Source: Acidipila sp. EB88 (GTDB lineage: Bacteria > Acidobacteriota > Terriglobia > Terriglobales > Acidobacteriaceae). From it: 64,000 nt of DNA. The first letter of the stretch is position 1. Every line of letters begins with the position of its first letter. The stretch is from NCBI RefSeq assembly GCF_003858395.1, contig NZ_QWEV01000005.1, positions 4,030,001 to 4,094,000 on the forward strand. The letters run 5' to 3'. This document shows positions 26,428 to 39,432 of this stretch, piece after piece. A program made the position numbers and the translations under genes. The notes beneath the pieces were generated by a model. The model was not told where the DNA came from. It made no database searches and saw only the letters and a list, made by a program, of their open reading frames with translations.

Positions 26428-29400
26428 TTACGCTTGCGGTAAGGGAGTAAGGCGAACCAGCTTCGTGGCCTGCGTGGGCCACTCGGCAAGCAGCCAAGCC
26501 GCCCGGGTGCTGCCGGTCTTTTCCCCGTGCAGCTGGATCAGATCGCGGATCACGCCCTGGGCTTCTTCGTCGAGGTGATCGAACCGCTCGGCCTCCAGAA
26601 AGGACGCGTGGTAACGGCCATCGCTCAGGAAGTCGCCATCCTCATCGAAAACCCAGGCACTTCCGCCGGTCATGCCTGCGCCGAAGTTCATGCCGGTGCG
26701 ACCCAGCACCACCACGGTGCCGCCCGTCATGTACTCGCAGCCATGGTCGCCCACGCCTTCAACCACGGCGAGCACGCCGGAGTTCCGGACCGCAAAGCGT
26801 TCGCCCGCGCGGCCTGCGGCAAACAGCGAGCCGCTGGTGCCACCGTACAGCGCGACATTGCCAAGGATGACATGACGCTCACTTTCGCGCGCGGCCCGTC
26901 CCTGGCCGCGCAGCACGAGTTCCGCACCGCATAGTCCCTTGCCGACAAAGTCGTTTGCCAGACCTTCGAGCACCAGGGACAAGCCCCTGGTTGCGAAGGC
27001 GCCAAAGCTCTGCCCAGCTACGCCCTTCATGTCGAAGCGCAGCGCAGGGTGGGTGTCGTCACCCGCGTGCTGGCGACGCGCCTGCTGCAGCGCCAGTTCA
27101 CCCGAGAGGCGCGCTCCGAGGGTCCGGTCCTTGTTGGAGACAGTCCCGCTCCACTCAAAGGCCTTGCCCGCAGCGTAGGCGGCAAGCGCCGGCTCAACCC
27201 ATGCGTCATCAATGGGCGCATCTTCGCCCGTCTCGGGACGATCGTTGCGGCCACCGGCCCAGCGTGTTTCGCCGCTGACCGAGGCAGCCAGCATCGGGGC
27301 GAGATCGAGACCGCCCGCGTGGCGTACCTGGGTAAGCAGGTCGGCGCGCCCGATGGCGGCGTCGATCGAGGGCAGGCCCAGCCGGGCAAGCAGCCCCTGG
27401 ACGTCGCCCGCGAGTTCCTCAAAGAAGCGCACGATGTGCTCTGGCTTGCCGCGGAACTTGGCCCGTAGGTCTTCTCGCTGGGTGGCGATACCGACGGGGC
27501 AGGTGTTGAGGTGGCACTGCCGCGCCATGTCGCAGCCGATCGCCACCAGCACCGCGGTGCCGAAGGCGAACTCGTCTGCGCCGAGCATGGCGGCGACCAG
27601 CAGGTCGTTGCCGGTGCGCAGGCCGCCGTCGACACGCAGGCGCACGCGACCGCGCAGGCCATTGCGCATCAGGGTTTGCTGCGCTTCAGCCAGGCCCAGC
27701 TCCCAGGGCGAGCCGGTGTACTTGATGCTTGAGAGCGGCGAGGCGCCGGTGCCGCCGGAGTAGCCGGCAATCACAATGTAGTCGGCGTATGCCTTGGCGA
27801 CGCCTGCAGCGACCGTGCCGACCCCGTACTCGGACACGAGCTTGACGCCCACGGCCGCCTTCGGGTTGATGCGCTTCAGGTCATAGATGAGCTGCGCGAG
27901 GTCTTCGATCGAGTAGATGTCGTGGTGCGGCGGCGGAGAGATCAGCGTGACGCCGGGCTGTGCATGGCGAAGGCGAGCGATCAGGCCGGTCACCTTGTGG
28001 CCTGGCAGCTGGCCACCCTCGCCTGGCTTGGCGCCCTGCGCCATCTTGATCTCAATCTCCTCGGCATTGCGGAGGTATTCCGCGGTGACGCCGAACCGGC
28101 CCGAGGCAATCTGCTTGGTCTTATTGTTGAGCAGGTGCGCCGGGTACTTGCGACCCACCAGTTCGAGCTCCGTGTCCGCCTGGTACACGGAGCGGTCTTC
28201 CCCGCCCTCTCCGGTGTTGGAACGGCCGCCCAGCAGGTTCATTGCGGCGGTAACCGTCTGGTGCGCCTCCGGGCTCAGCGAGCCCAGCGACATGGCACTG
28301 GCGATGCAGCGGGCAAAGATGCTCGACGACTTCTCGACGGAATCTACGGGCAAGGCAGCGCCCGCCGCACGGAAATCCAGAAGATCCCGCAGGTTGGCCG
28401 GCTCCTTCTCCGCGGCCTGCGCCGTGAACGCAGCCCAGGCTGCACCAGGCCCGGGAGCCGGAACCACTGCGCGTGCCGTGCTGCCGGCAACAGTCTGCAG
28501 CAGGCGCACGGTGGAGGGCTGCCAGGAGTGCGGCTCCGCGCCTTCGGTCTTGCGGAAGCGAACCCAGCCGAAATCCGGCAGGTCCTTGGAGACAACCGCA
28601 GGCGCGGCCGCGGCGGCGGAGGGTACAGCAGCAGACGCAGCAGCGGTCACCGGTGCTCCAGCGCCCACGGCGACGGGGACGCCTTCCGACGAGGCATTCA
28701 CGGTCTCGACCACAGGCGCCGTAGCGACAGCAGGCGAAGCCGCCGGCGCGTAGGTGCTCCAGTTTGCGCGTACGTGCGACTCGAGGTCGGCATACCCGAT
28801 GCCTCCGAGCGGCGCGGGCGTACCGAAGAAGCATTGCTCAATCACGGTATGATCCAGGCCGATCGAGTCGAACAGGTGTGCGCCGCGGTACGAGTCGAGC
28901 ACCGAGATGCCCATCTTGGACATGATCTTCGCTAAGCCGGCGTTGAACGCCTTGAGCAGGTTGCTCTCACCCACGTCTGGCACTGCCGCTTTGGCTGTTT
29001 CGAAAGCCAGCCATGGGCACACCGCGCCCGCGCCCATGCCCAGCAGCACGGCGGCATGGTGCACATCGCGACAGTCCCCGGCTTCCACAGCCAGGCCGAC
29101 CTGGGTGCGAATGCCTTCGCGGATGAGCTTGTGGTGCACGGCGCCGAGCGCAAGAGCCATCGGTACCGGCGCATGGTCCGCGTCGGTAGCGCGATCGGAA
29201 AGCAGCAAAATCGCCGCGCCGCCACGCACCAGGTCGGCGGCCTTGGCCATCAGATCCTCGATCGTGGAAGCAAGCGTGGCACCGGTCGGCAAAAGACAGT
29301 CGAGCACGGCGAGCGGAAGCTCATCACCCAGCGAGTGCCTGCGCGTGCGCAGGGCCTCGACCTGCCCGAGCGACAGCAAGGGCGACGCGAGCGAAAGCCC

Positions 29401-31047
29401 TGTCAAACGGGCCTTGTTGTCGAGCAGGTGCGGCCAGGGTCCCAGCCGAGTGTGCAGGTGAATTACCACGGCCTCGCGCAGCGAATCGATGGGAGGATTG
29501 GTCACCTGGGCGAAGCGCTGGCGGAAGTACGCGTAGACCGGGCGCGGCGAGCGAGCCATCGGGGCCAGCGGCGTGTCATCGCCCATGGACCAGATGGCAT
29601 CCTTGCCATCGGTCGACATCGGCTTGAGCACCATGGCGACGTCTTCACGCGTGTAGCCGAAGCCATGCTGCAGGCGAAGCAGTTCGCCGTCCGGCAGGGG
29701 AGTCACCGGCGTTGCCATGTCGAGCGTGCGGTCGTTCAGCAGGGGCTCGTACATCGGCGCGCGCCCGTCAAACACTTCCTGCACTTCGTCGTTCTCGTAG
29801 AGGTGGTGTTCGTCGAGATCGATACAAAGCATCTGTCCGGGGCCGAGGCGGCCGGAGTGCACCACGTGCTCGGGATCCAGGTCGACCAGGCCAGCTTCTG
29901 AGCCGACCACGACGAGTTGATCGTCGGTGACGAAGAAGCGGCAGGGCCTCAAGCCGACACGGTCGAGCGCGGCACCGACCAGGCGGCCGTCTGTGAACAC
30001 CACGGCGGCGGGACCATCCCAGTGCTCGATGCAGTCCTCATTGTAGGCAAAGAACGCGGACTGCTTGCGGTGCTGGGCCGGCGGCAGCATCAGCCGGATG
30101 GACTCCGCGATGGAGCGCCCATTGTGCGACAGCAGCTCGGCGGTTTCATCAAGCGAGGTGGAGTCGGAACCGTCGGGAGAAAAGATCGGCTTCACTTCGG
30201 CCGGGAGCGTGGCGTCGCGGGCATCCATGCGGGCCCGGTTGCCCCAAACCGTGTTGATCTCGCCGTTGTGCGAAATGGTGCGCAGGGGCTGCGCGCGATC
30301 CCAGGACGGGGCAACATTGGTGGCATAGCGCTGGTGAAAGATCGCGAACGACGTAACGTAGCGCGGGTCAGCCAGGTCGGCATAGAAGTGCGGCAGCTGC
30401 CGGCCGGAACACATGGATTTGTAAATGATGGTGCGGGATGACAGCGAGCAGACGTAGCCGGGCGTGCGGCTACGCTCGAAGGCTTTGCGCGCAATGTAAA
30501 GGCGGCGCTCAATGGCCTCGACATTGGCGGTGGTGAGCAGGACCTGCCGGACCACAGGCATGGTCGAGCGCGCGATGGTGCCAAGAATGGAAGGCTGCGT
30601 GGGCACGGTACGCCAGCCCAGCACCTCAAACTCCTGCGCGGCAAGCACGCCGGAGAGCGCGCCCTCGAAGCCGGCCTGCACATCCGCATCAGTGCCCACG
30701 GGCCAGAAGACCATGCCCACGGCCAGAGTCTGCTCGGGTGCCAGCGAGATGCCGGTGGAGGCAAGCAGGAGCTCACGCGGAATCGCGGTGCAGATGCCGA
30801 TGCCGTCGCTCGAAACACCGTCGGATGCGATCGCTCCGCGATGGGCAAGGCGGCTCAGGGCTTCCAGCGCCTGCTCCAGGATCGACCGCGAGGCCACGTC
30901 CGTCAGGGTCGCAACAAAGCCGACGCCGCAGCTTTCATGTTCAAAACGGGGGTCGTACAGACCGGCGGAGAGGCTGTTGGACGACGCGGCGTCCAGCTCG
31001 GAGGGAACCACGGCAGCGTGGGATGCAACAGATTGGTGACGGCCCAT
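26428..31047 (-). CDS. gltB: glutamate synthase, large (alpha) subunit
   Basis: 1539 residues, normal for the bacterial large subunit. The glutaminase domain begins at Cys40 (ESCGVGF), so a 39-residue propeptide must be cleaved to expose the nucleophile. The FMN domain has the 3Fe-4S cysteines in CDMARQCHLNTCPVGIATQ, and the C-terminal glycine-rich helix domain follows. An Ala/Val/Pro-rich stretch of ~55 residues (about residues 767-823) interrupts the central region. The start is ATG 31047; a TTG lies two codons earlier. The small subunit gltD is not in the window. It is divergent from the arginine operon and transfers nitrogen to glutamate, the arginine precursor. Confidence 0.96.
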   Translation of the reverse strand: MGRHQSVASHAAVVPSELDAASSNSLSAGLYDPRFEHESCGVGFVATLTDVASRSILEQALEALSRLAHRGAIASDGVSSDGIGICTAIPRELLLASTGISLAPEQTLAVGMVFWPVGTDADVQAGFEGALSGVLAAQEFEVLGWRTVPTQPSILGTIARSTMPVVRQVLLTTANVEAIERRLYIARKAFERSRTPGYVCSLSSRTIIYKSMCSGRQLPHFYADLADPRYVTSFAIFHQRYATNVAPSWDRAQPLRTISHNGEINTVWGNRARMDARDATLPAEVKPIFSPDGSDSTSLDETAELLSHNGRSIAESIRLMLPPAQHRKQSAFFAYNEDCIEHWDGPAAVVFTDGRLVGAALDRVGLRPCRFFVTDDQLVVVGSEAGLVDLDPEHVVHSGRLGPGQMLCIDLDEHHLYENDEVQEVFDGRAPMYEPLLNDRTLDMATPVTPLPDGELLRLQHGFGYTREDVAMVLKPMSTDGKDAIWSMGDDTPLAPMARSPRPVYAYFRQRFAQVTNPPIDSLREAVVIHLHTRLGPWPHLLDNKARLTGLSLASPLLSLGQVEALRTRRHSLGDELPLAVLDCLLPTGATLASTIEDLMAKAADLVRGGAAILLLSDRATDADHAPVPMALALGAVHHKLIREGIRTQVGLAVEAGDCRDVHHAAVLLGMGAGAVCPWLAFETAKAAVPDVGESNLLKAFNAGLAKIMSKMGISVLDSYRGAHLFDSIGLDHTVIEQCFFGTPAPLGGIGYADLESHVRANWSTYAPAASPAVATAPVVETVNASSEGVPVAVGAGAPVTAAASAAVPSAAAAAPAVVSKDLPDFGWVRFRKTEGAEPHSWQPSTVRLLQTVAGSTARAVVPAPGPGAAWAAFTAQAAEKEPANLRDLLDFRAAGAALPVDSVEKSSSIFARCIASAMSLGSLSPEAHQTVTAAMNLLGGRSNTGEGGEDRSVYQADTELELVGRKYPAHLLNNKTKQIASGRFGVTAEYLRNAEEIEIKMAQGAKPGEGGQLPGHKVTGLIARLRHAQPGVTLISPPPHHDIYSIEDLAQLIYDLKRINPKAAVGVKLVSEYGVGTVAAGVAKAYADYIVIAGYSGGTGASPLSSIKYTGSPWELGLAEAQQTLMRNGLRGRVRLRVDGGLRTGNDLLVAAMLGADEFAFGTAVLVAIGCDMARQCHLNTCPVGIATQREDLRAKFRGKPEHIVRFFEELAGDVQGLLARLGLPSIDAAIGRADLLTQVRHAGGLDLAPMLAASVSGETRWAGGRNDRPETGEDAPIDDAWVEPALAAYAAGKAFEWSGTVSNKDRTLGARLSGELALQQARRQHAGDDTHPALRFDMKGVAGQSFGAFATRGLSLVLEGLANDFVGKGLCGAELVLRGQGRAARESERHVILGNVALYGGTSGSLFAAGRAGERFAVRNSGVLAVVEGVGDHGCEYMTGGTVVVLGRTGMNFGAGMTGGSAWVFDEDGDFLSDGRYHASFLEAERFDHLDEEAQGVIRDLIQLHGEKTGSTRAAWLLAEWPTQATKLVRLTPLPQA

Positions 31048-31052
31048 GTCCA

Positions 31053-31058
31053 ACTATA
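31053..31058 (-). promoter_or_regulatory. candidate -10 for gltB, leaderless type
   Basis: TATAGT on the minus strand is followed by 5 bases and then the ATG at 31047. Confidence 0.5.
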
Positions 31059-31274
31059 CGTCCTCATTGCGGGAGTGGGTACATCTTGATTTCGCAGCGC
31101 CCGCAGCCCTGAAGGCGTCCGCAGGCAGGATGCTGCCGGACCTGCAGGTACCGGAACAACCGGCGGTCGAGCAACACGACGCGGGCAAAGCGGAAGACCA
31201 CGCGAACGGCGGCAGCCAGGCCGGTTTCAGCCGGGCTCTCAGCCGGATCGCGAACTGCCTTGCGGCCGGTCGCT

Positions 31275-31308
31275 TGCATAGTTATACACCGGAGCGTATT
31301 TTTATGCA
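31275..31308. promoter_or_regulatory. tandem ARG-box-like operators of the arg operon
   Basis: Two imperfect palindromes, TGCATAGTTATACA (31275-31288) and CGTATTTTTATGCA (31295-31308), each match the ArgR consensus TGAATwwwwATTCA at about 11 of 14 positions. Their centres are exactly 20 bases apart, the spacing bound by an ArgR hexamer. They overlap a plausible promoter (TTGCAT at 31274, TATTTT at 31298, 18-base spacer), so ArgR binding would block transcription. Confidence 0.7.
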
Positions 31309-31360
31309 GTGGGCTCTGCCCCGCCTTAACCAGCCCCAGCAGCGAGGATCAGCAAAGCGC

Positions 31361-31834
31361 GTGACCGCATCTGAAAACAAGGCCGAGCGCCACACAGCGA
31401 TCCGGGACGTGCTCCACGCTTCGGCGATTGCGAGCCAGGACGAGCTCCGGCGCAAGCTGGCCCGTCGCGGCTTCCGCGTCACCCAGGCCACCCTGTCCCG
31501 CGACATTCGTGAGCTGCACCTGATGAAGGGGCCGAGCGGGTATGCACTGCCCGGCCAAGGGAATAATGGCGTTGCGGATGAAGAAAACGAGGACCGCCTG
31601 CCCGCGCTGGGGGACCTTCTGGACAGTTTTGGACTGCGCATTGAACAGGCACAGAATCTCCTGGTGGTGATCACCGTGATGGGTTCGGCGCAGCCGGTAG
31701 CCGCAGCGCTTGATTATGCAGGATTGCCGGAGGTCGTCGGGACCGTGGCCGGGGACAACACCGTGTTGATCATCTGCCCGGATCGTAAGCAGGCCAAGGC
31801 GCTTTGCACTCGTTTGCGCATCCTGATCGGTTAG
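31361..31834 (+). CDS. argR: arginine repressor
   Basis: 157 residues from a GTG start. The N-terminal winged helix (SQDELRRKLARRGFRVTQATLSRDIREL) is diagnostic, and the C-terminal oligomerisation and arginine-binding domain has GTVAGDNTVLIIC. A longer frame from 31046 adds unrelated residues and would run through the operators, so I use the internal GTG at the conserved beginning. GAGGA lies 12 bases upstream, rather far. ArgR as the first gene of the operon it controls gives direct autoregulation through the adjacent boxes. Confidence 0.92.
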   Translation: MTASENKAERHTAIRDVLHASAIASQDELRRKLARRGFRVTQATLSRDIRELHLMKGPSGYALPGQGNNGVADEENEDRLPALGDLLDSFGLRIEQAQNLLVVITVMGSAQPVAAALDYAGLPEVVGTVAGDNTVLIICPDRKQAKALCTRLRILIG

Positions 31835-31883: not shown

Positions 31884-32942
31884 ATGGATCAGCTACTTTC
31901 AAACAACAATCAAACCGCGGTGGTGGGTGCCCGCGGGTATGCGGGCCAGGAGCTTGCGCGTATCCTGCTGGCCCACCCTCGTCTCGGTGGCTTGCCCCCA
32001 GTGTTCTGCGGGCGCGAGCGGGACTCGCTTGCGACGGTGCACCCGGCGCTGCGCTCACTGGCCAGCGCCGAGGCGCTGACTGTGCAGCCGTTTGCCTGGT
32101 CTTTGCTCGAGGAGCGCGGGGTCGATACGGTTTTTCTGGCGACGCCGCACGAGCAGTCGCGGCAGTGGGTGCCGGAAGCCCTGGCGCGAGGGTTCCGCGT
32201 GATCGACCTGAGCGGCGCATGGCGGCTGGAATCCAACCAGTACCGGGCCGTGTACGGCTTTGAGGATAACGAGGCGGAGGCTGCGCTCGCGACGCAGCAG
32301 CAGGCCGTGTACGGCATGCCCGAATTGCACCGCGAGGCAATCGCAAAGGCACGGCTTGTGGCCAACCCGGGCTGTTATGCAACCTCCGTGATCCTGGCAC
32401 TGAAGCCGCTGGTCGCCGCGGGCCTCCTCGACCTGGATCACGGCATCATCTGCGATGCGAAGTCCGGTGTCTCGGGCGCGGGCCGTGAACCCACGGCGAA
32501 AACCCACTACATGTACGCGGCGGACAATCTTTCCGTGTACGGGCTATGGAAGCATCGGCATACCGGCGAACTGTTTGAGCAACTGGGTGTCAGCGAGGAG
32601 CAGCTCGTTCTTACGCCCCACCTGCTGCCGATTCCGCGCGGCATCCTGTCTACGATCTATGTGCGGTTTCGCGAGCGCGTCACCTTGGCACAGGTGCAGG
32701 ATTGTTTCCGCAGCTTTTACGCGGGGCGCCGGCTGGTGCGGCTGTTTGAATCGCCGGACCTGCCGCAGATCCAGTACGTGGAGCGTACTAACTTCTGCGA
32801 CCTGGGCGTGTCGCTCGCGGCGGACGGACGGCGCGGCATCGTGGTTGCCTGCCTGGACAACCTGCTCAAGGGCGCTGCCAGCCAGGCCGTGCAGAATTGG
32901 AACCTGATGTGCGGCTGGCCGGAAACGGAAGGGCTGCTGTGA
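31884..32942 (+). CDS. argC: N-acetyl-gamma-glutamyl-phosphate reductase
   Basis: 352 residues. NADP-binding N-terminal motif AVVGARGYAGQELARIL, and the catalytic cysteine is Cys164 in NPGCYATS. The active-site His lies in LTPHLLPIPRGI. It reduces acetylglutamyl phosphate to the semialdehyde, the third step of arginine synthesis. 49 bases after argR. No strong ribosome site precedes the ATG, only AAGGA at a distance. Confidence 0.95.
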   Translation: MDQLLSNNNQTAVVGARGYAGQELARILLAHPRLGGLPPVFCGRERDSLATVHPALRSLASAEALTVQPFAWSLLEERGVDTVFLATPHEQSRQWVPEALARGFRVIDLSGAWRLESNQYRAVYGFEDNEAEAALATQQQAVYGMPELHREAIAKARLVANPGCYATSVILALKPLVAAGLLDLDHGIICDAKSGVSGAGREPTAKTHYMYAADNLSVYGLWKHRHTGELFEQLGVSEEQLVLTPHLLPIPRGILSTIYVRFRERVTLAQVQDCFRSFYAGRRLVRLFESPDLPQIQYVERTNFCDLGVSLAADGRRGIVVACLDNLLKGAASQAVQNWNLMCGWPETEGLL

Positions 32943-32982: not shown

Positions 32983-33765
32983 ATGAAGTACATCGTGAAG
33001 CTGGGCGGTGCCACGCTTGAAGATCCTGCGCTGCTGCGCTCCTGCGCCCGTGCGCTCGCCCAGTTGAAGCAGGCGGGCAACGACGTCGCGGTCGTGCATG
33101 GTGGCGGGGTGCAGCTGACGCGCACGCTCAAGCAGCTTGGCAAGCAGAGTGAGTTTGTGGGCGGTTTGCGCATCACGGATGCGGAGACCCGCGACACCGC
33201 GCTAATGGTCCTCGGCGGCGCGGTGAACAAGGCGTTGGTCGCTGCTTTAGCCGCACAGGCAGTCCCGGCGATGGGCATGTCGGGCGGCGATGGCATGGTG
33301 TTTCGCGCGCGCAAGAAGCGCATGGCGCCGGACCTCGGCTTTGTGGGCGAGATTGCCGCCGCGGATCCGCGCTGGCTGGACGCCATCTGGCGGATGGGCG
33401 GCGTGCCGGTGCTCTCAAGCATGGCGCTCGGTTTCGATGGCGAGTACTACAACATCAATGCGGACGAGATGGCAGCGGCCTGCGCGGCTGCCTGCCATGC
33501 TGATGCGCTGGTGTTCCTGACGGATGTGCCCGGTGTGCGCGGGGCAGATGGCACGGTGATGCGCTGGCTCAACACGGAGCAGATTGCGGGGCTGGTGCGG
33601 GATGCCGTGATCACGGGCGGGATGCTGCCCAAGCTGCATGCCTGCCGGGATGCTCTGGCGCAGGGGGTGAAACGCGTGCGCATCCTGCCGGCGGATCGCG
33701 CCGCGCTGCTGCCCGAGCTGTGCTCGGCACGCATTCCGGATGGTACCGAGGTTCTCGTCGCGTAA
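32983..33765 (+). CDS. argB: acetylglutamate kinase
   Basis: 260 residues, amino acid kinase fold: KYIVKLGGATLEDPALLRS at the start, the phosphate loop VVHGGGVQL, and GGMLPKLHACRDAL near the end. It phosphorylates N-acetylglutamate, usually the feedback-controlled step; the N-terminal helix found in arginine-inhibited hexameric kinases is absent, so it may be arginine-insensitive. GGAGG precedes the ATG. Confidence 0.93.
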   Translation: MKYIVKLGGATLEDPALLRSCARALAQLKQAGNDVAVVHGGGVQLTRTLKQLGKQSEFVGGLRITDAETRDTALMVLGGAVNKALVAALAAQAVPAMGMSGGDGMVFRARKKRMAPDLGFVGEIAAADPRWLDAIWRMGGVPVLSSMALGFDGEYYNINADEMAAACAAACHADALVFLTDVPGVRGADGTVMRWLNTEQIAGLVRDAVITGGMLPKLHACRDALAQGVKRVRILPADRAALLPELCSARIPDGTEVLVA

Positions 33766-33898: not shown

Positions 33899-35158
33899 AT
33901 GAGGCTTGAGGAGTTACAGGCGGCGGAGCAGAAGCTGTTGCTGCCAACGTACGAACGGAACCCACTGCTTGTCACCGGCGGTGAAGGTGTGTTTCTGCAG
34001 GCGGAGCATGGCGTGCGCTACCTCGACCTGCTGAGCGGGATCGGGGTAAGCGCACTTGGCTATGCGCACCCGGTGATCACGGCAGCGATCCAGGCGGCGT
34101 CTGCTTCGGTGCTTCACACGTCCAACCTCTTCTTCCATGAAGGACAGGCAGCGCTTGCCCTGCGGCTCACCGAAGCCAGCGGGCTGAATCGCGCCTTCTT
34201 CTGCAACAGCGGCACCGAGGCATGGGAGGCAGCGCTCAAGATGGCGCGCCTTTATGGCACAATGCGCCGCGGTGAAGGCGCCGCGCTTGGCACGCGCTTC
34301 CTGGCGATGGAAGGCTCGTTCCACGGGCGCACGATGGGTTCGGTGGCCACCACGCACAAGGAAAAGTATCGCGAACCGTTCGCGCCGGTTATGCCGGAAG
34401 TCGATTACATTCCGTTCAACGATGTAGCCGCGCTGGAAGCCGCGTGGTCGAACGAGTACTGCGCCCTGTTGATCGAGCCGATCCAGGGTGAGGGCGGCAT
34501 CCGGCCGGTTTCGCAGGCGTTCATGGACGCCGCGCGCGCAGTCACACAGCGCACGGGAGGACTGCTGGTGGCTGATGAAATCCAGGCAGGCTTTGGCCGC
34601 ACGGGTAAGTGGTTTGCGTTCCAGCACTACGATGTCGCACCTGACATCATCACCGTGGCAAAACCCCTGGCCGGCGGTTTGCCGCTCGGTGCGATGCTTT
34701 GCACGGACGAGGTTGGACGCGCCATGCAACCCGGTCTCCATGGCACCACCTTTGGCGGTGGTCCGCTGGCATGCCGCGTGGCGGTGGCGGTGTTCGACGA
34801 GATCGAGCGCTCTGCCCTGCTGGCACATGTCACCGAGGTTGGCGCTTATTTTGAGCAGCGGCTTGCCGAGTTGAAGCAGCGGCACCCCCAGATCGTGGAC
34901 GTACGCGGCAAGGGCCTGATGCTTGCGATTGAACTCAGCGATGCATTGGATGCGAAGGCCGTGCTCGAACAAATGATTAACACGCACCATGTGCTGATCA
35001 ACCGCACCAGCGAGACGGTGCTTCGCTTTTTGCCGCCGTACATTCTGAAGGCCGAGCATGTGGATCTTGGCATTGCAGCACTGGATGCTTCGCTGCGACA
35101 CCTCAACGAAAAACAGCTACAGGCGGCCGCGCAAACGGGAGGAACTATTGGTGACTAA
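33899..35158 (+). CDS. argD: acetylornithine aminotransferase
   Basis: 419-residue class III PLP transaminase. The cofactor lysine lies in TVAKPLAGGLPLGAM, and GEGGIRPVSQAFMDAAR, LVADEIQAGFGRTGKW and HGTTFGGGPLACRVA are the usual signatures. It converts acetylglutamate semialdehyde to acetylornithine, and could also serve succinyldiaminopimelate transamination in lysine synthesis. GGGAGA precedes the ATG. It overlaps argF by eight bases. Confidence 0.95.
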   Translation: MRLEELQAAEQKLLLPTYERNPLLVTGGEGVFLQAEHGVRYLDLLSGIGVSALGYAHPVITAAIQAASASVLHTSNLFFHEGQAALALRLTEASGLNRAFFCNSGTEAWEAALKMARLYGTMRRGEGAALGTRFLAMEGSFHGRTMGSVATTHKEKYREPFAPVMPEVDYIPFNDVAALEAAWSNEYCALLIEPIQGEGGIRPVSQAFMDAARAVTQRTGGLLVADEIQAGFGRTGKWFAFQHYDVAPDIITVAKPLAGGLPLGAMLCTDEVGRAMQPGLHGTTFGGGPLACRVAVAVFDEIERSALLAHVTEVGAYFEQRLAELKQRHPQIVDVRGKGLMLAIELSDALDAKAVLEQMINTHHVLINRTSETVLRFLPPYILKAEHVDLGIAALDASLRHLNEKQLQAAAQTGGTIGD

Positions 35159-36194
35159 CCAGCTGATCGAACCACAGGTGCATACACCGGGCGAGCTCTC
35201 GGCGAAGGCGTTTGCGGACGCGCAGGAGTCGCTCGCCGGGCGCGATCTGTGCTCCATCGCCGACCTATCCACGACGGAAGCCGCAGCGATCCTGGCCCTT
35301 GCGCACAAGGTCAAAGCCAATCCCGCAGCCTTCCGCTACGCACTCGATGCCAAGCAGATGGTGATGTTTTTTGAGAAAGCTTCGCTGCGCACGCGCCTGA
35401 CCTTCGAGGTCGCGATGAACACATCGGGTGGCGACGCCATGTTCGTGGACCAGACGCAGTCGCCGCTGGGCGAGCGCGAGTCGCTGGCGGACATGTCCCG
35501 GAACGTGGAGCGTTGGGTGCAGGTCATCGTGCTGCGGACATACTCGCACGACACCATCACGGAGATGGCGCAGTACGCGACCTGTCCCGTGATCAATGCC
35601 CTGTCCGACCACGAGCATCCCTGCCAGGCGCTGGCGGACTTCATGACAGTGGAAGAACGCTTCGGCGGTTCTGCCCGCGGGATCCAGTTCACGTATGTCG
35701 GCGACGGCAACAACGTGGCGCACTCACTGATGCTGCTGGCCGCGCAGCTTGGCGCGCACTGCACCATCGGCACACCGAAGAACTATGCACCCAAGGCCGA
35801 AGTGGTGGCGCAGGCACGTGCGATCGCCAACATCACCGGTTCGAACATCACGCTGGTGCAGGACCCGGTTGCTGCCGTGGCCGGAGCGAACGTGGTGTAC
35901 ACGGACGTATGCACCAGCATGGGCTTTGAACACGAAGCGACCAAGCGCGCGCCGATCTTCAAGCCTTACCAGGTCAACGAAGAGCTGATGGCGCATGCGC
36001 AGCCCGACGCCGCCTTCATGCACTGCCTGCCTGCGCACCGCAACGCCGAGGTGACAGACGCGGTGTTCGATGGTCCAAACTCTGTTGTGTTTGAACAGGC
36101 GGAGAACCGCATGCACGTACAGAAGGCGCTGCTGCTGCTCCTGCTTGGCGCCAAGCTTCCTGCGACCCCCTTCGCCCACATCGCCGCGATCTAA
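35151..36194 (+). CDS. argF: ornithine carbamoyltransferase
   Basis: 347 residues. The carbamoyl phosphate motif is KASLRTRLTFE, the DHEHPCQALADFM motif contains HPCQ, and the ornithine loop has the conserved HCLPAHRNAEVTD. It joins ornithine and carbamoyl phosphate into citrulline. The start is the GTG at 35151, inside argD, with GGGAGG upstream; TTG one codon earlier is possible. No sign of the acetylornithine-specific variant. Confidence 0.93.
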   Translation: MTNQLIEPQVHTPGELSAKAFADAQESLAGRDLCSIADLSTTEAAAILALAHKVKANPAAFRYALDAKQMVMFFEKASLRTRLTFEVAMNTSGGDAMFVDQTQSPLGERESLADMSRNVERWVQVIVLRTYSHDTITEMAQYATCPVINALSDHEHPCQALADFMTVEERFGGSARGIQFTYVGDGNNVAHSLMLLAAQLGAHCTIGTPKNYAPKAEVVAQARAIANITGSNITLVQDPVAAVAGANVVYTDVCTSMGFEHEATKRAPIFKPYQVNEELMAHAQPDAAFMHCLPAHRNAEVTDAVFDGPNSVVFEQAENRMHVQKALLLLLLGAKLPATPFAHIAAI

Positions 36195-36234
36195 GAGCGC
36201 GGCACCCGCACCTGAACAAGGATTGGAGAAATAC

Positions 36235-37467
36235 ATGGCAAATGACAAGGTAGTGCTGGCGTACTCGGGTGGACTCGATACATCCATCATCATTCCGTGG
36301 CTCAACGAAAACTATGGCCTCGACGTGATCGCTATGGTGGCCGACGTGGGCCAGGGTGAGGACATCGACGCGGTGGTGCAGAAGGCGTACACCACTGGCG
36401 CGAAAAAGGTGGTCGTGCAGGATCTGCGGGATGAGTTCGTGCGCGAGTACATCACGCCGACCGTCCAGGCGGGCGCAATGTATGAAGGCAAGTACCTGCT
36501 CGGCACCTCGATCGCTCGCCCCGTGATCGCCAAGGCGCAGGTCGAAGTAGCCCTTGCGGAGGGAGCTACCTCGGTCGCGCATGGCTGCACTGGCAAGGGC
36601 AACGACCAGGTGCGTTTTGAGCACGCCTACCAGGCGCTTGCGCCCGAGTTGAAGGTGATTGCGCCGTGGCGCGAGTGGGACCTGCGCTCACGCGAAGACT
36701 GCATTGACTACGCCGAAGCACACAATATCCAGGTCTCCGCGAGCCGCGTCAAGATCCACTCGCGCGACCGCAACCTCTGGCATGTAAGCCATGAAGGCGG
36801 TGAACTCGAAGACGCCAACAATGCGCCACTCGACACAACCTGGACAATGACACGCAGCCCGCAGGAAGCCCCGGACAAGGATGAACTTGTCACGATCGGT
36901 TTCGAACGTGGCATCCCGGTGTCCGTAGGCGGCCAGACGCTTGAGCCGGTGCAACTGGTGGAACTGCTCAACGAGATCGGCGCCCGCAATGCCATCGGCC
37001 GCATTGACCTGGTGGAGAACCGCTTTGTCGGCATGAAGAGCCGCGGCTGTTATGAGACGCCCGGCGGCACGCTGATCGTTGCGGCCCATGCGGAGCTCGA
37101 GGCCCTCACGCTTGAGCGCGATGTGAAGCACTACAAGCAGCACGTGGGTCTTCGCTACGCAGACATGGTCTACAACGGGTTGTGGTTTACCCCGCTGCGC
37201 GAAGCGCTCGATGCCTTTGTGCTGCAGACGCAGACAACGGTCACAGGATCGGTTACGCTTTCGCTCTACAAGGGCAACATCGCGATTGCCGGCCGCACCA
37301 GCCCGTTCTCGCTGTATTCGGATGAGCTGTCGTCGTTCACCATGGGCGACTCCTACGACCAGCGCGATGCAGCCGGCTTTATTCGCATCCTGGGCCTGCC
37401 TGCGCGTACCCAGGCCAAGCTGCGCAGCCTGCAGCAGGACCAAAGCCACAAGGTGGTCTCCAAGTGA
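36235..37467 (+). CDS. argG: argininosuccinate synthase
   Basis: 410 residues. The ATP-pyrophosphatase P-loop AYSGGLDTSI is near the start, with AHGCTGKGNDQVRFE further on. It condenses citrulline with aspartate using ATP. The start is ATG 36235 with GGAG upstream; a longer frame from 36070 overlaps argF. It overlaps argH by four bases (GTGA). Confidence 0.96.
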   Translation: MANDKVVLAYSGGLDTSIIIPWLNENYGLDVIAMVADVGQGEDIDAVVQKAYTTGAKKVVVQDLRDEFVREYITPTVQAGAMYEGKYLLGTSIARPVIAKAQVEVALAEGATSVAHGCTGKGNDQVRFEHAYQALAPELKVIAPWREWDLRSREDCIDYAEAHNIQVSASRVKIHSRDRNLWHVSHEGGELEDANNAPLDTTWTMTRSPQEAPDKDELVTIGFERGIPVSVGGQTLEPVQLVELLNEIGARNAIGRIDLVENRFVGMKSRGCYETPGGTLIVAAHAELEALTLERDVKHYKQHVGLRYADMVYNGLWFTPLREALDAFVLQTQTTVTGSVTLSLYKGNIAIAGRTSPFSLYSDELSSFTMGDSYDQRDAAGFIRILGLPARTQAKLRSLQQDQSHKVVSK

Positions 37468-38924
37468 AGATGTGGTCCGGCCGCTTTCGGGAGCCGCTTG
37501 ATTCTTTTTTCGACACGTGGCAGCGCTCGATCACTTTTGATCGTGCGCTGCTGCAGCAAGAGGTGCAGGCGAGCAAGGCGCACGCACGGGCCCTCGCGGC
37601 TGCGGGGGTTCTTGACGAGCAGGAGCAGCAGCAGATCAGCAGTGCTCTCGACAGCATCGCCGCGCGTTTCTCCGCCGCAAAAGCGGTGGAGGAAATCGGT
37701 GTCGCCACCGGGCACGACGCCGAGGACATTCACCACTTTGTCGAGATGGAGCTGGTCGAGCTGGTCGGCAATCTTGGCCTCAAGCTGCATACCGGGCGCT
37801 CACGCAACGAGCAGGTCGCCACGGACCTGCGGCTCTATATCCGCGAGAGCGGGGCAATGTTGATCCGTCACCTTGGGCGCTGGGCCAACGCTCTGCTGGC
37901 GCAGGCAGTGGCTGCGGGCGAGGCGGCTATGCCGGCCTACACGCACCTGCAGCGTGCCGAGCCCGTGCTGGTTGCGCACTGGCTGCTTGCTTACGTCGAA
38001 ATGATTCTCCGCGACGCCTCGCGGCTTGAGGATTGCCTGGAGCGGCTTAACTTCTGCCCACTCGGCTCGGGCGCCGTGGCCGGGGCTACCCTTGCGCTGG
38101 ATCGCACGATCACCTCGGAGACACTTCGCTTTGCCGCGCCCACGGCCAACAGCATGGATGCAACGAGCGATCGCGACTTTGTGCTCGAGTACCTGCAGGT
38201 ACTAACGCTGCTGGGTGTCCACGTGAGCCGTTTCGCGGAAGAGATGACGTTGTTTGCTACGGCAGAGTTCGGTTTTGTGGAGCTGCCGGAGGCGTACTCG
38301 ACCGGATCGAGCGCCATGCCGCAGAAGAAGAACCCGGATCTTACCGAGCTGCTGCGCGCCAAGGTTGGCCGTCTTTCGGCTGCGGCACAGAGCGTGTTGT
38401 TGACCCTGAAAGGTCTGCCGCTGGCCTACAACAAGGACATGCAGGAAACGCAGGAACCGGTGTTCGCAGCGACACAGGTAGCGCACGGAATGCTGCACCT
38501 GCTGGCCGGCTTTACCCATGCCGTCCGCTTCAAGACCGATCGCATGCGGGTCGCCTGCGAACAAGGCTATCTGAATGCGATGGCGGCGGCTACCTACCTC
38601 ACCGAGAAGGGTGTTCCCTTTCGCACCGCGCACGAGCGCGTCGGTACCGCGGTGCGCTTCGGGCTTGAGAGCGGCCGCGAGCTGCAGGAGTTGTCACTGC
38701 AAGAGCTGCAGTCGATCGAACCGCTCTTCGGGGCGGATGTGTACGCCGCGATCACCCTGGAGGCGACGCTCGATTGCCACGACGTGATCGGCGGAACGGC
38801 ACGCGCGCGCGTGCGCGCAGCACTGGCGGAAACGACGCAGCGGGTGCAGGCGCTGTGCTCCCGCTTCGCCCTCGTGACAGAGCCACACGCCGACTTAAAG
38901 GAAGCAGCGCATGCGGGTACGTAA
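37464..38924 (+). CDS. argH: argininosuccinate lyase
   Basis: 486 residues, fumarase/aspartase superfamily. The signature GSSAMPQKKNPDLTELLRAK contains the catalytic serine region, and HTGRSRNEQVATDLRLY the substrate loop. It releases arginine and fumarate, the last step. The start is the GTG overlapping the argG stop; an ATG follows two codons later (MWSGRFREP). Confidence 0.95.
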   Translation: MKMWSGRFREPLDSFFDTWQRSITFDRALLQQEVQASKAHARALAAAGVLDEQEQQQISSALDSIAARFSAAKAVEEIGVATGHDAEDIHHFVEMELVELVGNLGLKLHTGRSRNEQVATDLRLYIRESGAMLIRHLGRWANALLAQAVAAGEAAMPAYTHLQRAEPVLVAHWLLAYVEMILRDASRLEDCLERLNFCPLGSGAVAGATLALDRTITSETLRFAAPTANSMDATSDRDFVLEYLQVLTLLGVHVSRFAEEMTLFATAEFGFVELPEAYSTGSSAMPQKKNPDLTELLRAKVGRLSAAAQSVLLTLKGLPLAYNKDMQETQEPVFAATQVAHGMLHLLAGFTHAVRFKTDRMRVACEQGYLNAMAAATYLTEKGVPFRTAHERVGTAVRFGLESGRELQELSLQELQSIEPLFGADVYAAITLEATLDCHDVIGGTARARVRAALAETTQRVQALCSRFALVTEPHADLKEAAHAGT

Positions 38925-39432
38925 GGCCCTGCTTCATGATGCGACCAACATCTATGAACTGGTGAACTCGCTTTCTCACGACGGCACGCTGTTGCGGCGT
39001 GTGTTCGCGGAGATCTGCGAGAACGTGCGCGACTTTACCGTGGCCGAGAGCGATGCGGGCGCATTTCTCGGCTGCGGAGCCTTGCATCTTTACGGCCCGC
39101 ACCTTGCGGAGGTCCGCTCGATCGTGGTGCGCCCCGAAGCCAAGGGCCAGGGTGTGGGAGCAAAGCTGCTCGCCGCAATCCTTGCCGAGAGCGAGGAGCA
39201 TGGCATTGGCTGCGTGTGCCTGTTCACACGCATTCCAGATTTCTTTTTTCGCTATGGATTTCGCGAAGTCACGGATCGTGCGGCGCTGCCGGACAAGATC
39301 TACAAGGACTGCCAGAACTGCCCGCGCATTTACCACTGCGACGAGATCGCGATGGCGCGTGGCGAGGTTCCCCGGGTGTCTATCCTGGGTACGCGTGAAA
39401 AGGTAGAGAACCTGGTCCAGATCGGCGCCTGA
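38911..39432 (+). CDS. GNAT N-acetyltransferase, probable short N-acetylglutamate synthase
   Basis: 173 residues. The acetyl-CoA motif is VVRPEAKGQGVGAKLLAA (73-90), followed by the GNAT C-terminal strands (LFTRIPDFFFRYGF). The gene overlaps the argH end by 14 bases and AAGGAA precedes its ATG. No argA, argJ or ArgA-argH fusion is otherwise present, and the operon would need a first-step enzyme, so it very likely acetylates glutamate, as in other short GNAT-type ArgA proteins. A CX2CX5C set (Cys134, Cys137, Cys143) in the C-terminal part is not needed for GNAT chemistry and could bind a metal. Confidence 0.82.
   Translation: MRVRKALLHDATNIYELVNSLSHDGTLLRRVFAEICENVRDFTVAESDAGAFLGCGALHLYGPHLAEVRSIVVRPEAKGQGVGAKLLAAILAESEEHGIGCVCLFTRIPDFFFRYGFREVTDRAALPDKIYKDCQNCPRIYHCDEIAMARGEVPRVSILGTREKVENLVQIGA

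Follow-up and report, generated by a model that had tools for sequence, protein, structure and literature searches.

Introduction

Arginine genes carry ARG boxes to which hexameric repressors of the ArgR/AhrC family bind together with arginine, repressing the genes, as described in the accessible parts of two earlier reports (PMC6640053, PMC4865122). The standard operator of Escherichia coli consists of two 18-bp boxes with 3 bp between them, that is, 21 bp from center to center (accessible part of PMC6640053), and not 20 bp, which a preliminary description of the locus analyzed here had taken for the E. coli spacing. The ARG box of Streptomyces is given as AWTGCATRWWYATGCAWT, and that of the Bacillus AhrC/ArgR operators as CATGAATAAAAATKCAAK, in the accessible part of PMC4865122. 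A literature search, with regulon databases and most subscription papers outside its scope, found no study of ARG boxes or ArgR in acidobacteria; judging by their titles, the papers that pair acidobacteria with ArgR or with an arginine repressor deal with other subjects.

Results

The box pair and the arginine operon

The window, the whole 64-kb stretch of DNA analyzed here, comprises positions 4030001-4094000 of contig C5 in a genome of 4.48 Mb and has a G+C content of 63.5%. Downstream of argR, on the same strand, the genes follow in the order argC, argB, argD, argF, argG, argH and a GNAT acetyltransferase gene, and two candidate ARG boxes are located between argR and its divergent neighbor gltB:

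26428..31053, minus strand: gltB, divergent neighbor (NF008730 above cut-off)
31275..31288, plus strand: ARG box 1, TGCATAGTTATACA, 11/14 matches with the E. coli core, unchanged in G043 (same genus)
31295..31308, plus strand: ARG box 2, CGTATTTTTATGCA, 11/14 to the E. coli core, identical in G043
31361..31834, plus strand: argR, GTG start proposed (PF01316 and PF02863 above cut-off)
31884..32942, plus strand: argC (TIGR01850 above cut-off)
32983..33765, plus strand: argB (TIGR00761 above cut-off)
33899..35158, plus strand: argD (TIGR00707 above cut-off)
35058..36194, plus strand: argF, open frame with homology from about residue 59-62 (NF001986 and TIGR00658 above cut-off)
36070..37467, plus strand: argG, open frame with homology from residue 57 (NF001770 and TIGR00032 above cut-off)
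37464..38924, plus strand: argH (TIGR00838 above cut-off)
38911..39432, plus strand: GNAT acetyltransferase (best match NF005840, 147.7 bits, just below the cut-off of 154; GNAT Pfam domains above cut-off)

Scored against the E. coli core TGAATWWWWATTCA, the two 14-mers have the positions, the degree of matching and the center-to-center distance of 20 bp that had been reported for them. They form the sole pair in the window in which both boxes match at 10 or more positions at a spacing of 18-23; 200 dinucleotide shuffles of the window contain a mean of 0.055 pairs at this threshold and 0.005 at 11 or more, and none of 2000 shuffles of positions 31201-31362 contains a pair at 10 or more. A chance origin of the pair is rejected on the basis of these shuffles and the conservation described below. 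In the whole genome, the strict-pattern search yields one pair, the one at argR. The locus thus presents two imperfect palindromes of about 18 bp with centers about 20-21 bp apart (11/14 + 11/14, with 0.005 pairs expected), placed before arginine genes and conserved there. An open frame that begins at 31046 passes through the boxes in frame with argR; the homology to TIGR01529 starts only at residue 114 of this frame (approximately position 31385), so that the boxes most likely lie upstream of argR and not inside the coding sequence.

The frame of the GNAT acetyltransferase overlaps the end of argH, and the protein is similar to positions 464-610 of NF008964, the acetyltransferase portion of ArgH fusions. 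It is possibly N-acetylglutamate synthase, the first enzyme of the pathway, in the form of a stand-alone protein; the genome also has ArgJ. The operon had been described as the entire arginine pathway, which is accurate with regard to argC, argB, argD, argF, argG, argH and the acetyltransferase gene, all of which follow argR, but not with regard to carA and argJ, which are located elsewhere in the genome. The upstream regions of these two genes contain no pair above the level of shuffles, being equaled by 151 and 198 of 200 shuffles that preserve base content but not dinucleotides (scored with the family consensus introduced below).

Conservation within the family

Apart from the genome of the window, the genus is represented among the 150 family genomes searched by G043 alone. 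In the block around the boxes, 36 of 38 bases are identical between G043 and the window, as against 7 and 8 identical bases in the two 20-base flanks (ungapped comparison). Matches to ArgR were detected in 127 of the 150 genomes; for 90 of these, upstream regions of about 260 bases each were read, the remaining 37 being mostly lower-ranked. Loci L032-L037 are not among the 90, since their inclusion would have led to double counting of species (the upstream sequence of L032 is the same as that of G043).

With the family consensus TGNATAWTTATNCA, 89 of the 90 loci score at least 22 of 28, and 88 score at least 24. None of the 90 control stretches of equal length taken from inside argR reaches 21, and one reaches 20; the highest of 3600 shuffles, which preserve base content but not dinucleotides, scores 23, so that scores of 22-23 taken alone are not beyond chance. 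This consensus was picked after inspection of the relatives, and runs with the E. coli consensus provide an independent check: 89 loci score 22-27 and one scores 15, compared with a maximum of 20 for one shuffle of each locus, again with base content alone preserved. The spacing is 20 bp at 72 of the 89 loci, 21 at 16 and 22 at one. At the lone miss (L136, in G130), a strict pair is found 432 bases upstream instead. Genome-wide, the strict pattern gives 68 matches in 67 of the 150 genomes, compared with one match of the reversed pattern, and 63 of the 68 are located within 450 bp of argR. The pattern is absent from the other 83 genomes, and many true pairs fail it.

Pairs outside the family and away from argR

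The wider survey took in 119 genomes of the phylum. ArgR matches were present in 63 of these; 52 of the 63 belong to other families, and the best-scoring 19 of the 52 were read. At 17 of the 19 loci, a pair with a spacing of 19-21 bp (20 bp at 14 loci) scores above each of 100 shuffles when the family consensus is used; the E. coli consensus gives this result at 13 of the 19 (base content, but not dinucleotides, preserved in these shuffles). Only 7 of the 19 loci score 24 or higher, several pairs include one weak box (e.g., 8+13 at L229), and no pair was found at L232 and L243. Gene order outside the family differs, often with argC divergent from argR-argG. A pair close to argR seems to be common across the phylum, although this is less certain than within the family.

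Five strict matches lie away from argR, and four of these precede argC (two cases), carA or a DDAH-like gene. In G108 and G055, the pair directly precedes argC (in G055, argR sits with argF-argG, L225); in G030, it precedes carA; and in G149, the gene behind it encodes a DDAH domain (47.9 bits against a cut-off of 23). The fifth, in G058, is located between argR and gltB. These exceptions likewise point to a function of the pair.

Judged by sequence comparison, the pair is very probably the ArgR operator of the argR-argCBDFGH-GNAT operon, an assessment for which the family data are the basis. The original proposal of an ArgR operator in front of argR is strongly supported by the presence of the pair at 89 of 90 family loci and 17 of 19 loci outside the family, as well as by the conserved footprint in G043 and the identity of the genes that carry additional pairs.

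The divergent gltB gene

The position of the pair raises the alternative that, when bound by ArgR, it serves both divergent promoters, those of argR and gltB, and links arginine to glutamate supply. The E. coli ArgR represses gltBDF (accessible part of PMC1784095), and gltB is divergent upstream of argR in at least 36 of the 90 family loci, a lower bound because the flanks covered only about 800 to 1500 bases. In G058, where another gene separates argR from gltB, a second pair is found about 390 bases before codon 32 of gltB. Against this, the pair in the window is more than 220 bp from the start of gltB, and none of 20 gltB genes located apart from argR has the pair in the 600 bases upstream, including 9 of the closer type (at least 48% identity). 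The 20 are our own selection among 110 genomes with a gltB match, those in G139 and G033 being about 2 kb and about 1 kb from argR, and the corresponding shuffles preserve base content but not dinucleotides. Because these 20 genes lack it, the pair goes with the arg genes, and gltB is probably not governed by it. Shared control is accordingly unsupported by the comparison and, although kept as a rival because of G058, is unlikely.

At the G058 locus (L249, contig G058:C99), the gene between argR and gltB looks Rieske-like, as judged by eye, and has an ARG pair on each side.

Promoter position relative to the boxes

In the default promoter scan, no sigma-70 site with at least 9 of 12 matches was found between positions 30900 and 32000. 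The only candidate in this region, with 7/12 by our own count, is TTGCAT-17-TATTTT, which is common to the window and G043:

31274..31279, plus strand: proposed -35, TTGCAT, overlapping box 1, 3/6 to TTGACA, kept in G043
31297..31302, plus strand: proposed -10, TATTTT, in box 2, 17 bp past the -35, 4/6 to TATAAT

Among the relatives, promoters with at least 10 of 12 matches are present near the pair in 56 of 89 family loci, compared with 0.6% of shuffles (preserving base content but not dinucleotides). In 27 of the 56, the -10 hexamer starts exactly 8 bases into box 1 (TTGACA-17-TATACA); in 15, the best -10 lies 5-12 bases before box 1; in 8, it is at box 1 + 2; and in 6, it is found in other places. 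The remaining 33 loci, including those of the window and G043, have no promoter of this quality, and at the spacing found in the 27 loci, the match to TTGACA is 3 of 6 positions for the window and 1 of 6 for G043. Support for the claim that the boxes overlap a promoter comes from the relatives, in many of which the -10 is tied to box 1; the window shows no strong promoter at the boxes. For the genus of the window, the probable arrangement is a -35 in box 1 and a -10 in box 2.

At five loci (L138, L139, L142, L145 and L161), only a few bases separate the end of box 2 from the ATG of argR, and TTGACA-16-TAAGAT lies upstream; the leader at these loci is very short, and the operator lies over the start region.

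Given the possible promoter in the window and the -10 hexamers of many relatives inside box 1, the boxes might be no more than A+T-rich hexamers of a promoter whose likeness to ARG boxes is accidental. However, the palindromes and their spacing of 20-22 bp stay constant while the promoter moves from before box 1 to +2 and +8, and the upstream regions of the 20 separate gltB genes contain no such pair, which makes this explanation highly improbable. Starting from the ArgR operator, a more speculative evolutionary scenario can be tentatively put forward, namely, that in Acidobacteria the box pair is a fixed module around which the promoter slid, the -10 being placed before box 1 in some loci and within it in others, while in the genus of the window the -35 lies in box 1 and the -10 in box 2, so that promoter and operator have merged, and that the half-sites changed clade-wide from TGAATA to TGTATA/TGCATA. 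We consider this scenario plausible but somewhat less probable than its opposite. If it is true, the family would be a natural series showing how one repressor stays in control as the position of the promoter and the specificity of the site shift.

The ArgR protein

The argR product is the only match to PF01316 found in the genome. Both the N-terminal winged helix domain (PF01316, 64.8 bits) and the C-terminal domain (PF02863, 79.4 bits) score above the cut-off, and therefore we read the protein as a diverged member of the ArgR/AhrC family, predicted to work like ArgR independently of TIGR01529, whose equivalog cut-off it misses (116.4 vs 130.45 bits, E 1e-33). It is 75% identical to the ArgR of an uncultured Acidipila MAG, and its best match in the PDB is 1f9n ("arginine repressor/activator protein", E 1.2e-24), which we take to be the AhrC protein of B. 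subtilis.

In the motif AGDNT, Asn replaces the second Asp, where four full-length solved chains among the matches listed have GDD. This Asn is found in 7 of 90 family ArgR proteins, including that of the window, with 3 changes on a quick tree. The paired Asp is a feature of the arginine pocket, and the substitution may alter the response to the ligand. Among the matches listed in the literature search for ArgR and citrulline, a superrepressor is not mentioned.

ArgR proteins with V-G-Q-A-T accompany TGAATA half-sites and those with V-T-Q-A-T accompany TGTATA/TGCATA (L002-L031, L112-L171). In raw counts the association is strong: the third base of the half-site is A in 66 of 88 half-sites with the winged helix residue G and in 21 of 264 with T. 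The residue changes only twice on the quick tree, and 1 or 2 independent pairs exist; with so few independent changes, this covariation is indistinguishable from shared descent. A simple residue-base code is further disfavored by the fact that chain 1f9n has VTQAT although the Bacillus box has TGAAT (accessible part of PMC4865122).

A separate palindrome array in the same genome

The genome of the window also contains another array, about 115 bp long. Its three TGCATANNTATGCA-like palindromes have offsets of 0, +53 and +83; the sequence between them is conserved, and a TAAGAT-like hexamer lies past them. Eleven copies were aligned (two much diverged; G000:C5, L195-L202 and L205-L207; e.g., 2119279-2119444, 3646278-3646407 and 969435-969578). 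They look intergenic, and the neighboring open frames, examined by eye, often run towards the array. Searching the DNA with one copy gave 8 further matches (E up to 0.01), of which one is partial; the strict two-box form occurs at 7 places in the genome; the scan of viral contigs gave 5 stretches; and Rfam and tRNA scans of the array gave no match.

Given these approximately 11 copies, a second protein with a similar binding preference may exist, which raises the alternative that another palindrome-binding regulator uses the pair in front of argR. The array, however, differs in its spacings (53 and 30 bp), and the two central bases of its palindromes vary freely, unlike those of ARG boxes. Moreover, its strict form is present in none of 149 relatives, whereas the argR pair tracks argR and the arg genes in the family and beyond. 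Use of the pair by a regulator other than ArgR is thus very unlikely.

Discussion

By analogy with the known ArgR/AhrC family, the argR operon would be transcribed as a single unit and repressed in an arginine-dependent manner. When arginine is plentiful, an ArgR hexamer would bind both boxes, cover the start region of the operon and exclude RNA polymerase; arginine would thereby shut off its own synthesis and the production of ArgR, the autoregulation being suggested by the position of the pair. Nothing observed here departs from the known mechanism, and the differences in spacing, in the half-sites and in the Asn of 7 of 90 ArgR proteins are those of degree. The finding is ordinary in kind, a classic feedback switch, and strongly supported. 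It leaves the knowledge of how ArgR works unchanged; its main use is as a regulon prediction, with a well-supported predicted operator, a consensus and target genes, for a phylum that has been little studied. In the genome of the window, the arginine operon is predicted to be essentially the sole high-quality target with paired boxes.

Like the E. coli operators, the pair consists of imperfect palindromes that lie two helical turns apart at arg genes. It differs in the distance between centers, which is mostly 20 bp here (72 of 89 loci in the family and 14 of 17 outside) and not 21, in the third base of the half-site, which is mostly T or C in genomes with the V-T-Q-A-T form of ArgR, including the window, and in the presence of a single strict operator in the window's genome. 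A spacing of 20 bp is also found at the argR gene of E. coli itself. The half-sites of the window's clade are TGTATA or TGCATA and not TGAATA. The TGCAT half-site of the Streptomyces box (accessible part of PMC4865122) is shared with box 1 of the window, whereas box 2 departs to CGTAT and the regulon there is actinobacterial. The likeness to the Bacillus AhrC/ArgR system lies in the protein, 1f9n being the best structural match of the window's ArgR, whereas the Bacillus half-site, in the accessible part of PMC4865122, has A at the third base.
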